A DNA stretch of 23,512 nt from a virus. Of this stretch, positions 8,057 through 16,984 are shown piece after piece (the first letter of the stretch is position 1; each line of letters begins with the position of its first letter). The position numbers and the translations under genes were made by a program. The notes below the pieces were generated by a model, which made no database searches, was not told where the DNA came from, and saw only the letters and a list, made by a program, of their open reading frames with translations. Location of the stretch: the IMG/VR virus record IMGVR_UViG_3300032397_000083, positions 1 through 23,512 of that record; one strand, given 5' to 3'.

Positions 8057-8470
8057 ATGAATCATACATGGGTCAATTCGTGGAAGGTAAATGGCGGTTG
8101 GCTAACTTGCTCAAAGTGCGGCATTGTATGCAGCGATTCTTCTCGCAATACCGTTTGCGGCCCTAGCACTTCGATCGACCCGCGCCTAGAGTGGGTCAAC
8201 GCATTCGCACACATCGCCTTTAGCGACGCCGAAAGGGCCCTCTACCATATGACACTCGGACCCGGAAAATACGATTATCAACTAAGCCAAGCGCTAAAAG
8301 ACGTCGATGCGAGGCAAGGGATATTAGTAGTGCTAGACGGCGCGAGGGGCCCTAGCTTTTGTATGCAGCTAGAACCGGCTAACGCTATTCTAGTGCCTGT
8401 CATGCTGCGCGACATAGCGGACAAACTAGACGCCGACATGTACAGGGCGGGTATAAAACGGAGTGACTAA
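8057..8470 (+). CDS. Cys-rich protein with possible zinc knuckle, unknown function
   Basis: The 137-aa protein begins with a compact Cys cluster, C18-x2-C21-x3-C25-x8-C34, which could bind zinc. The remainder is a mixed alpha/beta-looking domain (about 40-137) with no motif I recognise. It starts 3 bases after the preceding stop, with only a weak ribosome site. Its last 8 bases overlap the GTG of the methyltransferase locus, so it may be translationally coupled to it. Function cannot be assigned. Confidence 0.7.
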   Translation: MNHTWVNSWKVNGGWLTCSKCGIVCSDSSRNTVCGPSTSIDPRLEWVNAFAHIAFSDAERALYHMTLGPGKYDYQLSQALKDVDARQGILVVLDGARGPSFCMQLEPANAILVPVMLRDIADKLDADMYRAGIKRSD

Positions 8471-9395
8471 GGTGGAAGGGCGCATAAATGGTCTGGACTT
8501 ATTTAGCGGCATCGGCGGAAATACCCTTGCGCTTAGACCATCGCGTATTGTGAAGCAAGCGCCTACGCTCAATCTGTTCTTATATCACGAATTGCGGAAG
8601 GGCTTATCGAGCCCGCGCCCATATGGGATGACGTTCGAACGCTTACTAGATCTTTGCTTAGCGCCCCCATTGATATTATTATCGCTGGCTTTCCCTGCCA
8701 GGATATCAGCGTTGCAGGCAATGGTGCAGGCTTGGCAGGCGAGCGATCTGGATTGGTGTTTGAAGTATTCAGGCTCATCTCAGAAATACGCCCCCGGTTC
8801 GTTTTCCTTGAAAACGTGCCGGCGATTAGGACACGTGGCGGCGAACGAGTGGGGAAAGAATTGGCCGCGCTCGGGTATGATAGTCGGTGGGATATGCTAT
8901 CCGCTTTTGACGTGGGGGCGCCGCACAAAAGAGAAAGATGGTTTTTGTTGGGTTACGCCAACGGCGCGGGGCCGGGAGGAAAATTACGAGACATATCTAG
9001 CCCGGATGCAGGGGAAAACCGATCCAAAATCCAAAGGAAAAACACGGCCGACCTCTTTGGGAATGCAGGTGAATTGCCCCGAGTTTTTTCCAACACCAAG
9101 CGCGTCGAGTTACGGGACGAACCAGGGCGGCGGGGCGGGCCGCGTGGGCAAAGTGCGGCCGTCGCTGGAAACCATGGCCAAGCGCAATCTATGGCCAACG
9201 CCCACCACCGGGGATTGGAAGTCGGGCTCCCACGGCAACCAAGGCAATGCTCGGCCGTTATCGGAAAAGGTTGGTGGGAGTTTGAACCCGACGTGGGTAG
9301 AGTGGCTCATGGGGTTTCCGATCGGGTGGAGCGAATTAAATGCCTCGGTAACGCAGTGGTACCGGCCCAAGCGCGAGAAGCGTTCAAAAGACTAA
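8463..9395 (+). CDS. methyltransferase locus, frame A: motif I start plus overprinted phage Dcm-associated C-terminal domain
   Basis: This frame starts at GTG 8463 (or GTG 8472) and stays open for 310 codons. Residues 9-26 are motif I of a cytosine-5 methyltransferase (NGLDLFSGIGGNTLALRP, SAM binding). Residues about 27-105 are not recognised. The rest reads like the C-terminal domain of many phage Dcm-like proteins: WPRSGMIVGGICYPL, then RRT and TPTARG, FFPTPSASSYGTNQGG, WPTPTTGDWKSG and finally NPTWVEWLMGFPIGW. The catalytic motifs are not in this frame but in the -1 frame of the same bases (see 8537-9406). So either two proteins share this DNA, or a one-base deletion near 8537-8541 has moved the start into this frame. 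It overlaps the previous gene by 8 bases. Confidence 0.6.
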   Translation: MTKVEGRINGLDLFSGIGGNTLALRPSRIVKQAPTLNLFLYHELRKGLSSPRPYGMTFERLLDLCLAPPLILLSLAFPARISALQAMVQAWQASDLDWCLKYSGSSQKYAPGSFSLKTCRRLGHVAANEWGKNWPRSGMIVGGICYPLLTWGRRTKEKDGFCWVTPTARGREENYETYLARMQGKTDPKSKGKTRPTSLGMQVNCPEFFPTPSASSYGTNQGGGAGRVGKVRPSLETMAKRNLWPTPTTGDWKSGSHGNQGNARPLSEKVGGSLNPTWVEWLMGFPIGWSELNASVTQWYRPKREKRSKD

Positions 9396-9406
9396 TGGGG
9401 CTGTAA
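8537..9406 (+). CDS. methyltransferase locus, frame B: DNA (cytosine-5) methyltransferase catalytic domain lacking its own start
   Basis: This frame opens after TAG at 8534-8536 and contains every catalytic motif except motif I: TIAYCEASAYAQ (motif II area), APIWDDVRTL, the nucleophile loop GFPCQDIS (Cys codon 8696-8698), FLENVPAI (motif VI, Glu codon 8810-8812), GAPHKRERWFLL (motif VIII), a recognition region of about 115 residues and KCLGNAVVPAQAREAF (motif X). It would methylate C5 of cytosine in phage DNA. No ATG or GTG precedes the PCQ motif; the first TTG (8654) would omit motifs I-III. Motif I lies in the other frame at 8487-8540, so an intact enzyme needs a -1 shift at about 8537-8541. 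No classical slippery heptamer is seen. The stop abuts the polymerase ATG (TAAATG). Confidence 0.75.
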   Translation, partial: TIAYCEASAYAQSVLISRIAEGLIEPAPIWDDVRTLTRSLLSAPIDIIIAGFPCQDISVAGNGAGLAGERSGLVFEVFRLISEIRPRFVFLENVPAIRTRGGERVGKELAALGYDSRWDMLSAFDVGAPHKRERWFLLGYANGAGPGGKLRDISSPDAGENRSKIQRKNTADLFGNAGELPRVFSNTKRVELRDEPGRRGGPRGQSAAVAGNHGQAQSMANAHHRGLEVGLPRQPRQCSAVIGKGWWEFEPDVGRVAHGVSDRVERIKCLGNAVVPAQAREAFKRLMGL

Positions 9407-11554
9407 ATGATTGACTTTAAAAATGCGACGGCCCGCAAAAACCAAAAGTATTGCGTCATGGACTATGAGACTTATTCCGAAGCCGATCTAACGAAAGTGG
9501 GAGCTTATGAGTACAGTATCCATCCTTCTACTGAGATCTTATGCGTTGCTTGGCGAATCGGTACACTTGAAACTCTAAAGAGTGAGAGGACTTATTGCAG
9601 TAATTTTGGCGGGGCCATCGGGGACAAATTCACGGGATTTTTGCAGGCTCTTTTAGATCCAAGTATCATACTGGTCGCGCACAATGCGCTATTTGAGCAA
9701 GTGATAACTCGCAACGTGTTCGCCGTCAAGGATATGTATTCTAAAAGCAGCAAAATAAGAGCTATCCCGGTGAGCCGTTGGATATGTACGGCCGCGCTTT
9801 CGTCGGCCCTGGCACTCCCGCGCAAACTAGAGGGCGTGGCTAGCGCCCTTAAGCTATCGGTCCAAAAAGACGAAGCGGGACATAAGCTTATGAAAAAATG
9901 GTGTAAGCCCCGCAAGGCCAGTAAAAAAGACACCAACACCAGGCACTCAGACCCGTTAGAATACGCCCGGCTTATGGACTATTGCAGAACGGACGTAGCG
10001 GTTGAAACCGAGCTATTTTTGCTACTTCCGCCGCTTAGCCCGGTAGAGCGGAAAGTGTGGGAGTTAGACCAAATCATTAATTTGCGGGGCTTTAACGTCG
10101 ACCGAACGCTAGTTAAAAACGTGCTGGCCATGGTTGACGAGGAAACTAAAGCACTTGACGCCGAAACCGAAGAATTGACTTACGGCTATTTGACCACCAC
10201 AAAAAAGGTCGCCAAAGTCCTAGATTACTTGCGCCTCGAAAAGGTGGTGTTACCTGACCTAACAGCCCCCACCGTCGAAAAAGCACTTACGGTCGAACTA
10301 CCCGAAACGGCAAAACGCTTACTTGAAATTCGCGCTTCGGTGTCCATGGCGTCTACTGCAAAATATAAAGTGTTTGAACTACGTTCGCGCCATGACGGCC
10401 GGCTTCGCGATATCCTCGTATATCATAGGGCCTCAACCGGCCGCTGGGGCGGGGCGGGTATTCAGCCGCAAAACTTCCCGCGTGGCACTATTAAGAACAC
10501 CACTAAGGCATCCGAAATATTGGCCGAGGGTAGTTTAGATCTAGTCCGCATGTTTTATAAAAATCCGATGCAGGTATTTTCCAGCTGTTTGCGCAACATG
10601 ATTATACCGAGCAAGGGGGCTGTTTTTGACGTAGCCGACTATGCGGGTATCGAAGTGCGCGTACTGTTTTGGGCCGCTGGCCATAAGGACGGTATCCGCG
10701 CATTTGTCGAAGGCCGCGACCTTTATAAAGAGCTCGCATCAAAAATATACGGTTGCCCGCTAGACACCATAAATGAATCGCAGCGGTTTTTAGGCAAGGG
10801 CGCCGTACTCGGGTGCGGGTTTTCTATGGGCGTTGACAAGTTTCAGGTCACTTGCGCAAAGCAGGGAAATCCCGTTAGTCGCGAGTTAGCCGATGCGGCG
10901 GTGAAAACCTACCGAACCGAACACGCGCCGGTAGTCGTTTTGTGGCGGGCGCTTGAAAAAGCGGCGATTAGCGCCGTTCAACAGCCCGGTAAAAGCTTCA
11001 CCGCCGGGCCAACTAAGTGGACGGCCTCGGGGGGTACTAGGCCGTTTTTGTGGTGCCTGCTTCCAAGCGGTAGGCGCCTGGCCTATGCCTACCCTAGCGT
11101 AGTGCATGAGCCGTCGCCGTGGGGTAACGGCGATCCCCGGCCGGTGCTGTATCATTACGGCGAGGACGCTGTAACGCGCAAGTGGGTCAACGCCAAAACC
11201 TACGGCGGCAAGCTAACTGAAAACGTGATTCAAGCGATCGCCCGCGATTTAATGGCCGAGGCCATGCTACAGATCGAGGACGCGGGCCCATGGCGCATTG
11301 TGCTATCGGTGCATGATGAGCTCATAGCCGAACGGCCCATCGATGCTAAGTGGGCAAATCTTCAACAATTCTGCCAACTTATGGCCAATATCCCGGCCTG
11401 GGCGTCGGGGTGCCCGGTCAAGGCCGAAGGGTGGTCAGGCGACCGCTACCAAAAAGGCCGCGCTACACATAGCGCATCGGCCGCCACGCATCATGCCGAC
11501 CGGGCCAAGGACCACCACTTCCACCCGCTACCCGGCCTAAATTGTTCCATGTGA
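9407..11554 (+). CDS. DNA polymerase, family A (phage Pol I-like with 3'-5' exonuclease)
   Basis: The 715-aa replicative polymerase has a 3'-5' proofreading exonuclease first: Exo I MDYETYSEADL (D19, E21), Exo II AHNALFE (N93) and Exo III CRTDVAVE (D196). The polymerase part follows: STGRWGG with PQNFPR (343-358), motif A DVADYAGIEVR (D411, E416), motif B GKGAVLGCGFSMG (463-475) and motif C SVHDELI (H636, D637, E638). All metal-binding and dNTP-binding residues appear present. A polar His-rich tail (from about 688) extends beyond the fold. The ATG directly follows the methyltransferase stop. With the primase-helicase, SNF2 helicase, nuclease and SSB it completes a self-sufficient phage replication set. 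It is the last large gene before the repeat region. Confidence 0.96.
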   Translation: MIDFKNATARKNQKYCVMDYETYSEADLTKVGAYEYSIHPSTEILCVAWRIGTLETLKSERTYCSNFGGAIGDKFTGFLQALLDPSIILVAHNALFEQVITRNVFAVKDMYSKSSKIRAIPVSRWICTAALSSALALPRKLEGVASALKLSVQKDEAGHKLMKKWCKPRKASKKDTNTRHSDPLEYARLMDYCRTDVAVETELFLLLPPLSPVERKVWELDQIINLRGFNVDRTLVKNVLAMVDEETKALDAETEELTYGYLTTTKKVAKVLDYLRLEKVVLPDLTAPTVEKALTVELPETAKRLLEIRASVSMASTAKYKVFELRSRHDGRLRDILVYHRASTGRWGGAGIQPQNFPRGTIKNTTKASEILAEGSLDLVRMFYKNPMQVFSSCLRNMIIPSKGAVFDVADYAGIEVRVLFWAAGHKDGIRAFVEGRDLYKELASKIYGCPLDTINESQRFLGKGAVLGCGFSMGVDKFQVTCAKQGNPVSRELADAAVKTYRTEHAPVVVLWRALEKAAISAVQQPGKSFTAGPTKWTASGGTRPFLWCLLPSGRRLAYAYPSVVHEPSPWGNGDPRPVLYHYGEDAVTRKWVNAKTYGGKLTENVIQAIARDLMAEAMLQIEDAGPWRIVLSVHDELIAERPIDAKWANLQQFCQLMANIPAWASGCPVKAEGWSGDRYQKGRATHSASAATHHADRAKDHHFHPLPGLNCSM

Positions 11555-14505: not shown

Positions 14506-15558
14506 CTAGCAGGGCCTAACCAAAGCGCCTGAAACAGCCGATAGCACTTCGGCCGGGCGCGGTAGCCAAGATATTAAAAGATCCTCGGGTACATTTTCGG
14601 CCTCTACTTTTTCGGCCTTATTCGGGCAATTGTCTAAAACTTCCCATATGCCGCCGCGCCCGAGGTTCACCATGCGCCAAGCCCAACGGCCACGCCGCCA
14701 ATGCGAAATAAAATCAGGATGCTTGCAGGTCGCAACGTAGAAAATCCAAGCGTCACCCGTCGCGGCCATATGGAGCGGGGCCGAATCGTTTGTAACCAGG
14801 GCGGGCATCATCTGTAGTAGTGCGACCGATTCCATAATGGACAATTTATTACGGGCGTCACACCAAACATTAGAGGCGTCCACGTCCACGGTGCCCCTGT
14901 TGTCATCGGTATCGCCGCCGATCAACACCACATTGAATTTTTCAGCTAGGCCGCCTATCGTATCGTCCCACCACGTTTTCGGAAAAGTCTTAGACTGCCA
15001 ATGCCGGCCGGCGTGGACGGCTACCGAAGCCGCGAGCGCATCGGGCTCGCCTAGTCTCGTTTTTCGCAAGGCGTTGTAAAAATCTAGCTCGCTAGGCTGT
15101 ATCGTCACTTCTTTTTGTTCGACGGGTATCTGACACCGAAAAGCACAAAGGGCCGGAAAGTCCACGGCATTAATCAGCATATGACTCATAAATTGCCATT
15201 GCAGGCTTTCGGGCGAACGTATCATTTCAAAAGCGTGGTATTTATCCCATAGTGGGGCGCCTTTGGTCAGATCGAAAACGTCTTTAAATTTTAAATGCTC
15301 GAATAGCTCTGGGTGATTAGTCGCAAGCGAAAACTCGCAGCCCTTGAACGTGCGCATAGCAAAACGGATGGTGGGCTCCGAGCAAATAACGTCACCTAGA
15401 CCGCCCCAAGTGACAAAAATTAAATTGCGCTCGGTGCCGCGTTCGATTGCGGCGGCCGTGCGAAACGAGGGAATTTCAAAGGCCGGTAGCGTTACAGTGT
15501 CGGCGGCTGATTTGAGTGGTGTTTTCATTGGTGCTTCGGTTTCCATCTTAGGCGTCAT
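14506..15558 (-). CDS. GT9-like (heptosyltransferase-type) glycosyltransferase in tail operon
   Basis: The 350-aa protein resembles GT-B fold family 9 transferases, which use nucleotide-activated heptose or similar sugars. Visible: an N-terminal Rossmann start FVTWGGLGDVICSEPTIRF (about 48-66), a central VVLIGG strand after VAVHAGRHWQSKTF, and the diagnostic MMPALVTNDSAPLHMAATG donor-site segment (about 258-276). The ATG at 15558 overlaps the preceding fibre gene by 11 bases; a second ATG lies at 15546. It is the last gene before the strong terminator. A role in glycosylating a fibre or a host surface sugar is inferred from its position; acceptor and donor are unknown. Confidence 0.82.
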   Translation of the reverse strand: MTPKMETEAPMKTPLKSAADTVTLPAFEIPSFRTAAAIERGTERNLIFVTWGGLGDVICSEPTIRFAMRTFKGCEFSLATNHPELFEHLKFKDVFDLTKGAPLWDKYHAFEMIRSPESLQWQFMSHMLINAVDFPALCAFRCQIPVEQKEVTIQPSELDFYNALRKTRLGEPDALAASVAVHAGRHWQSKTFPKTWWDDTIGGLAEKFNVVLIGGDTDDNRGTVDVDASNVWCDARNKLSIMESVALLQMMPALVTNDSAPLHMAATGDAWIFYVATCKHPDFISHWRRGRWAWRMVNLGRGGIWEVLDNCPNKAEKVEAENVPEDLLISWLPRPAEVLSAVSGALVRPC

Positions 15559-16984
15559 ACTCCAAAACTAGCTTAAAGTTTTTTGCGGGGCCGGCATAGA
15601 CGGGGACAATAACACCACTTGAAAAGTCAGTTAACCTGATATTGTTATCGACCACCGTAACGGTGTATGTGCTACCCGGCGTCACCGTAATATCGAGCTC
15701 AGCAACAAAATTTTCCCGTACAATATTGGTCGTAAAAGGTAGGGTAGACATTAGCGTTGGCGTGGACTTATCCGCCGTAGTCGCGCCGTTTGTCCCAAGC
15801 TGCGCGAAGCTATTATCACCGGCCCCGTATATAGCGGACCCACCGGGGCCCATAAAATACGCTGTACCCCGGCCGCTCACGGCGACGGGGCTTGCAATGT
15901 TGGCGCTATACCCCGCCATGGAAACGTGCACAAATTTCCCGTAGCCCGTTACTAGCGTTGGTGTTGAGCGGGGCACTACGTCGTTTTGCGCAAGCTGCCC
16001 GTTAGTGTTCGCCCCCCAAGTGTAAGCTTGGCTATCGGTCGCAAGTCCAACCACCGAGCCCGGCGCGGCCGATACCTCAAGCCACTTGAGCCCGCCCGAC
16101 ACTAAAACCGGCGATGAGCGAAACGTTACGCTACCGTCGCCTAGTTGGCCGTTGGCATTGTTGCCCCATGCATACATATCACCGGCCGTTGTAATCCCGT
16201 AGCACGACGGTGTAGAAGCGCCGTCGGTGGTCACATATTTGAAGGCTAGACCACCCACCACTAGGGTAGGTGAGGCGATCGGCGTAGTAGCACTACCCGT
16301 GCCAAGCGCCCCGGAAGTGTTGACGCCCCATGCGTAGGCGGCGCCGTTGGAAGCGTTGATCGCGAGGTTAGATGAGCCGTTGGCGGCGACAAATGAAAAT
16401 AGCTGCGCCGTGGCTATAAGTACCGGCGTACTACCAATAGACCCAAGCCCCGAACCGACCGTATTACCGCAGCCGTATAGATTGCCGGGGCCGTCGATAA
16501 ACAGCGAATACTGGTAGCCCGCCGCCACTTGCCGAAAGCGGTACCCGGTAACAACAGCCGAAACCGACTCAGCCCCGGTGGTGTTATTAGTGCCACACTG
16601 GCCAAAAACATTCGTGCCAAAAGCGTAGGCAGCACCACCGTTATCAAGTGCAATCGAATGGGAAAACCCCGACGAGTTAGCGCTTATTTGGGTGATAGTG
16701 GGAATGCTCGTAACTAGCAGCGGCGAACTACCGCCGCCCGTGCCGATACAGTTTCCAAAACCCACGTTTAAATTCGCGCTATGCCCGCACCCGAACCATG
16801 CGCTCCCTTGCGAAGCCGATATATAAGGCGAAGTGATCGCCATAAAATACCCCGAACCGCCAATTAATTGCGGGTAGAGCGCGGCATATACTTTGGCCCT
16901 AACAGTTTTGACACCACCTGGGGCCGTCCAATATTGGCCATTGATAATTGAAAATGATTTTCTAGTGAGGTTTTTCGCGCCCAT
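15548..16984 (-). CDS. tail fibre with seven RCC1-type propeller repeats
   Basis: The 478-aa protein is built of RCC1-like repeats of about 45-55 residues, each with a Y-x-W/F/C-G-x-N-x2-G-x-L-G core. I count seven: WFGCGHSANLNVG, YAFGTNVFGQCG, YGCGNTVGSGLG, YAWGVNTSGALG, YAWGNNANGQLG, YTWGANTNGQLA and YGAGDNSFAQLG, which is the number that closes an RCC1 propeller. A short N-terminal part (1-50) may attach to the tail, and a C-terminal beta domain (about 415-478) follows. It lies directly after another tail fibre gene. RCC1 propellers mediate protein or glycan contacts, so receptor binding is the likely role. The ATG at 16984 has GGGGCGGG upstream. Confidence 0.85.
   Translation of the reverse strand: MGAKNLTRKSFSIINGQYWTAPGGVKTVRAKVYAALYPQLIGGSGYFMAITSPYISASQGSAWFGCGHSANLNVGFGNCIGTGGGSSPLLVTSIPTITQISANSSGFSHSIALDNGGAAYAFGTNVFGQCGTNNTTGAESVSAVVTGYRFRQVAAGYQYSLFIDGPGNLYGCGNTVGSGLGSIGSTPVLIATAQLFSFVAANGSSNLAINASNGAAYAWGVNTSGALGTGSATTPIASPTLVVGGLAFKYVTTDGASTPSCYGITTAGDMYAWGNNANGQLGDGSVTFRSSPVLVSGGLKWLEVSAAPGSVVGLATDSQAYTWGANTNGQLAQNDVVPRSTPTLVTGYGKFVHVSMAGYSANIASPVAVSGRGTAYFMGPGGSAIYGAGDNSFAQLGTNGATTADKSTPTLMSTLPFTTNIVRENFVAELDITVTPGSTYTVTVVDNNIRLTDFSSGVIVPVYAGPAKNFKLVLEYDA

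Follow-up and report, generated by a model that had tools for sequence, protein, structure and literature searches.

The window, meaning the whole 23,512-base stretch of DNA analysed here, is a tailed-phage fragment from IMG/VR in which genes for a helicase, exonuclease, ssDNA-binding protein, DNA polymerase, baseplate, tail fibre and endolysin surround a methyltransferase (MTase) locus. Two overlapping reading frames were open at this locus on the plus strand, frame A from 8463 to 9395 (310 aa) and frame B from 8537 to 9406 (289 aa), with frame A at +1 relative to frame B. The DNA polymerase gene lies directly 3' of the locus (9407-11554, +; phrog_17, 1.3e-104) and the 137-aa ORF immediately 5' of it (8057-8470, +) had no match in PHROGs. 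Elsewhere in the window an RCC1-type repeat protein (15551-16984, -; phrog_4219, 1.3e-23) adjoins the tail genes. Frame B matched Pfam PF00145 (8.7e-32) over residues 30-158, covering only model positions 47-177, and phrog_363 (1.6e-58). Frame A had no match in Pfam and matched phrog_1008 (1.3e-17) as well as phrog_26627 and phrog_27243. This agrees with the earlier note on this DNA, which had reported two overlapping open frames that each resemble known families, and the base correspondences that it quoted between the frames were correct.

Frame B (8537-9406, +) reads as the alpha-like subunit of a C5-cytosine methyltransferase (C5-MTase) with motifs II-VIII and X. Catalytic motif IV (FPCQDIS) was found at 8690-8710, motif VI (FLENVP) at 8804-8821, motif VIII (GAPHKRERW) at 8915-8941 and motif X (KCLGNAVVP) at 9338-9364, all on the plus strand, and the PF00145 signatures PCQ (IV), ENV (VI), RxR (VIII) and GNxV (X) were all present in this frame. 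Motif IX was absent from frame B. The earlier assignment of motifs IV-X to frame B held for IV-VIII and X and failed for IX, which was located in frame A. The target-recognition region (TRD) and motif IX, which belong between motifs VIII and X, are thus present at the locus, but in frame A. The TRD (8949-9278, +) runs WVTPTARG...FFPTPSASSYGTNQGGGAGRVGKVRPSLETMA...LWPTPTTGD, a sequence type carried in frame by the actinophage MTase L405, and motif IX follows at 9279-9338 (+) as SLNPTWVEWLMGFPIGWSEL, with LNPTWVEWLMGFPIGW at 9282-9329. Across the motif IX DNA frame B reads WWEFEPDVGRVAHGV (9272-9316, +). The WPRSGM motif of frame A (8862-8879, +) overlies motifs VI-VIII, within an open and weakly constrained leader part. 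The likely beta subunit, with ATG 8628 as candidate start, would span 8628-9395 (+).

In the window the frame-A ORF (8463-9395, +) also contains motif I (GLDLFSGIGG, with LDLFSGIGG at 8493-8519, +), which relatives read in frame with motifs IV-VIII. Alignment demonstrated that 13 nt present in the four closest relatives (L081, L082, L084 and L085) are missing from the window between motifs I and II, at a junction at 8532-8537 (+) just upstream of 8537. Because these 13 nt are missing, motif I is out of the MTase frame and inside the frame-A ORF, where it is joined at about 8536 to the beta-like frame with the TRD and motif IX. Motifs I and IV lie on one chain in all four relatives but not in the window. 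Frame B had no obvious start, the first remaining start codon being TTG 8654, and frame-A ATG 8628 had no clear Shine-Dalgarno sequence. The alpha (large) chain of the window is broken as assembled, and intact relatives exist. Either a real lesion or an error of assembly could account for the 13-nt difference; the conclusions at the level of the family are independent of it. Indels within the overlap were also seen at L091, L102, L259, L261 and L101, giving ORFs that are MTase at the start and frame A at the end, or the reverse, like the window.

Across IMG/VR, GTDB MAGs, phages, plasmids and E. coli, frame A was found at +1 of the MTase in 396 of 412 MTase loci. Scanning with frame A gave at least 592 IMG/VR relatives, and the same configuration was recovered by scans that used the MTase frame alone. 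The nested arrangement was found in phages of Paenibacillus, Lacticaseibacillus, Acinetobacter, Microcystis and Synechococcus. Phage-like plasmids from Salmonella, Citrobacter and Lacticaseibacillus also had it, as did E. coli chromosomes, where it lay at sites containing phage genes. Stop codons were compared with synonymous codon shuffles in which the MTase protein was held fixed. In 130 loci picked by the MTase frame only, the overlap contained 8 stops at +1 against 343 expected, and no depletion was seen at +2 (1235 observed, 1246 expected), in line with the claim of the earlier note that the overlap is more than coincidence. Over whole MTase matches there were 304 +1 stops against 644 expected by codon shuffle. 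Depletion at +1 extended from just before motif IV to after motif IX: window frame B residues 61-260 had 3 +1 stops against about 320 expected, with the ends at expectation, and frame A was stop-free from about ten codons before the PCQ motif.

In Paenibacillus phage Bloom (L110) the overlapping frames at 1414-2469 and 1616-2320 are both annotated as 'DNA cytosine methyltransferase', and the same doubling (x2) occurs in many related phages. In E. coli strain EC20 (L152, 1357-2526) RefSeq gives the MTase as two incomplete pseudogene pieces. The MTase frame there runs on without a stop and the +1 ORF is open alongside it, and the pseudogene call looks like an annotation artefact.

Selection on the two frames was assessed with pN/pS from codon alignments in frame A for two clades of relatives, which gave the same picture. 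Over motifs IV-VIII, pN/pS was 0.16 and 0.23 in the MTase frame and 0.82 and 1.06 in frame A, and the fastest position was the third position of the MTase frame; as sequence pairs share ancestry and are not independent, these and the following values are descriptive. From the first [LW]xTP motif to motif IX the values were 0.22 and 0.23 in frame A and 1.26 and 1.30 in the MTase frame, with the third position of frame A the fastest. At the first xxTP motif, A3 (=B1) replaced A2 (=B3) as the fastest codon position. A third clade (L100) changed in the same direction, less sharply. Strong protein-level selection acts on frame A in the recognition part only. Where it overlies motifs IV-VIII, frame A is stop-free with little amino-acid constraint and looks like a translated leader. 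A frame A that is no more than the shadow of a conserved MTase, and that annotators have called as a gene, would fit the pN/pS of 0.82-1.06 over motifs IV-VIII, but this reading, to which we give almost no credence, is ruled out by the stop-codon and pN/pS tests, that is, by the near absence of +1 stops (8 against 343 expected) and by a frame-A pN/pS of 0.22 across the TRD and motif IX with frame-A third positions fastest. The earlier note had raised the possibilities that frame A lacks homologues after residue 105 or has only shadows without selection; neither was the case, and the outcome favours frame A. Its further suggestion, which derives the widespread C-terminal domain from an alternate frame of the catalytic domain, found no support, since constraint in frame A begins only past the catalytic domain, at the first xxTP motif.

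The identity of frame A was evident from relatives that carry its sequence in the MTase frame. In L405 one ORF carries motifs I-VIII followed by YLPTPSAVSYGSNQGGAAGRTGEVRHSLESMARLELLPTVTARD, LAAAFSEWLMMLPEGHL (motif IX) and GNGVVPLQA (motif X), in that order. The corresponding part of window frame A is FFPTPSASSYGTNQGGGAGRVGKVRPSLETMAKRNLWPTPTTGD, and frame A matched L405 by BLASTP at 5e-15. Frame-A sequence was in frame at the TRD/motif IX position in L405, L332, L346, mycobacteriophage Tweety and L104, and Tweety, L332, L346, L104 and others have this type of motif IX in frame with motif X. A profile of 105 frame-A proteins aligned LNPxWVEWLMGFPxGW to LSPRFVEWMMGLPPGW of L104. L371 and L145 have LNxDWVEWLMGxPxxW in the MTase frame and matched PF00145 almost end to end. 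The alignment of L371 to PDB sequences covered motifs I-VIII only, with motif IX outside it, and neither frame A by itself nor its profile matched anything in a PDB sequence search. In the AF2 model of L405 the catalytic part was confident, the motif IX/X part had pLDDT >90 and the xxTP repeats had pLDDT <50. This model superposed on M.HhaI (2z6q_A) with VIA Z 24.6, 247 residues being aligned across 1-379 at rmsd 3.0. AF2 of frame A alone gave pLDDT 60 and pTM 0.30.

Because of these single-frame MTases, the extents of the PF00145 matches and the L405 model, we read frame A as the enzyme's own recognition region (a predicted TRD) together with its motif IX. An unrelated accessory protein overprinted on an ordinary MTase would also give a conserved open +1 frame and would suit a frame A that has no Pfam family. 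However, frame A is not a foreign protein, because single-frame MTases (L405, L332, L346, Tweety and L104) carry its TRD and motif IX in frame, and the MTase frame lacks motif IX and is unconstrained where frame A encodes it. Overprinting of this kind is highly improbable and, given the single-frame relatives, can be set aside. The overlap proposed in the earlier note is thus genuine and conserved, with frame A under purifying selection, but it does not consist of an unrelated domain.

The single-frame relatives had further features of their own. L104 (1297-3507) is a 737-codon MTase with about nine xxTP repeats in the +1 frame, after which motif IX is back in the MTase frame, and the number of repeats differs among its relatives. 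In Propionibacterium phage B22 gp50 (L154, 1177-3276) an intein-like insertion splits catalytic motif IV (GGSPC-FVAGTSVLTHDG...FIAAGIVVHN-CQDLS).

The layouts of motifs IX and X were counted over distinct loci using regular expressions, which left some loci unclassified. Motif X was in the MTase frame and motif IX in frame A at 205 distinct loci, both were in the MTase frame at 27, and motif X, or IX and X, was in the A frame at about 16. The Peaches gp77/gp76 and Sebastisaurus 34/35 pairs belong to this last group, with motif X (and IX) in the second chain, an AquI-like split. Motif X also reads in the A frame in L085, a close relative of the window, which shows the step between layouts itself.

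Together these data suggest that the locus is very probably a naturally split phage C5-MTase in which the small-subunit gene is nested at +1 inside the large-subunit gene. The computations establish dual coding, the change of the selected frame, the correspondence of frame A to TRD plus motif IX and the place of this sequence in single-frame relatives; the production and assembly of both chains, internal initiation and enzymatic activity are inferences. The alpha (large) chain would provide the catalytic domain with motifs I-VIII plus motif X, and the beta (small) chain the target-recognition region and motif IX. Beta would most likely be started internally just before motif IV, pass motifs IV-VIII as a stop-free leader and continue into the recognition part. 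The two chains would then assemble into one enzyme that methylates a cytosine in a short target, presumably for protection of phage DNA or as an orphan MTase. Assembly and DNA methylation are expected by analogy with M.AquI, M.EcoHK31I and the fragment complementation of M.SssI (PMC3404938).

Near motif IV, 181 of 284 loci had an in-frame frame-A ATG after the last stop (92 expected), and 32 of 300 had a strong Shine-Dalgarno sequence with a frame-A ATG (9.5 expected; for example aAGGAGGtacaacgATG in L061). By this strict rule only about 10% of loci had a strong Shine-Dalgarno sequence before a frame-A ATG. Programmed ribosomal frameshifting, in which ribosomes from the MTase start shift into frame A and make a fusion with the TRD and motif IX, would place the change of frame where selection changes, between motif VIII and the first xxTP motif. 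Natural single-frame fusions exist, and shifting could also be promoted by the Shine-Dalgarno-like sequences close to where frame A starts. However, a shift at motif VIII would leave frame A free to acquire stops over motifs IV-VIII, where they are nearly absent; the stretch just upstream of motif IV is enriched in frame-A ATGs and Shine-Dalgarno-ATG pairs; and a single shift would lose motif X, which is kept in the MTase frame in 205 loci. We consider frameshifting unlikely, and we favour internal initiation because frame A would have no need to be open over motifs IV-VIII if ribosomes shifted at the domain boundary.

Two-polypeptide C5-MTases are already known from M.AquI and M.EcoHK31I (PMC3404938). 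The open-access literature searched contained no account that describes the nesting as general among phages. The apparent novelty lies in how widely phages carry the arrangement, in the clear assignment of the recognition region to the nested frame, in the precise point at which selection changes frame and in the range of layouts, from split to nested to fused. The arrangement looks common in phages and usually mis-annotated. It is reasonably likely that a large share of phage and prophage 'orphan Dcm' genes are obligate two-subunit MTases with their catalytic and recognition halves in different frames, and that repeated indels shift motifs IX and X from one chain to the other or join the chains. 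If this is true, the choice of frame would be an evolvable way to split and rejoin an enzyme. Gene callers that avoid long same-strand overlaps would drop one frame, so that the records of many phage MTases lack the recognition half; alternatively the two halves are recorded as rival 'DNA methyltransferase' calls, as in Paenibacillus phages. Target-site assignment, cloning and testing of such enzymes would fail without expression of both frames. The loci would also form a large natural data set on overlapping genes, with two constrained frames, a sharp switch at a domain boundary and fused forms as controls.

The ShiLan element, in which an HNH gene is hidden in a methylase insertion (PMC11855218), is a different case. 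The fused form resembles M.HhaI and the canonical C5-MTases in its fold (Z 24.6) and in PF00145, but these are single chains in a single frame. The single-chain actinophage C5-MTases (Tweety gp72, Propionibacterium phage B22 gp50 and L405) share the catalytic domain, the xxTP-type recognition region and motifs IX and X; they differ in that L405 has everything in one frame and several others keep part of the xxTP repeats at +1. M.EcoHK31I (YGGCCR) has a large chain with motifs I-VIII and X and carries motif IX on the smaller chain, and its predicted TRD was assigned to the large chain (PMC3404938). Compared by motif layout, the 205 distinct loci with motif X in the MTase frame and motif IX in frame A are like it. 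The small gene of M.EcoHK31I reportedly lies inside the large gene in another frame (Lee, Kam and Shaw, 1995), which would match the nesting seen here, at +1 in 396 of 412 loci. The TRD is where the two differ: it is predicted in the large chain of M.EcoHK31I, whereas selection and the single-frame relatives place both TRD and motif IX in the small chain here. M.AquI (CYCGRG), whose small subunit holds motif X (PMC3404938), has its break in a similar place, after motif VIII and before the recognition region. Peaches, Sebastisaurus and L085 share with M.AquI a motif X on the small (second) chain; the window differs in having motif X in the large chain (frame B) and a small gene nested deep inside the large gene.
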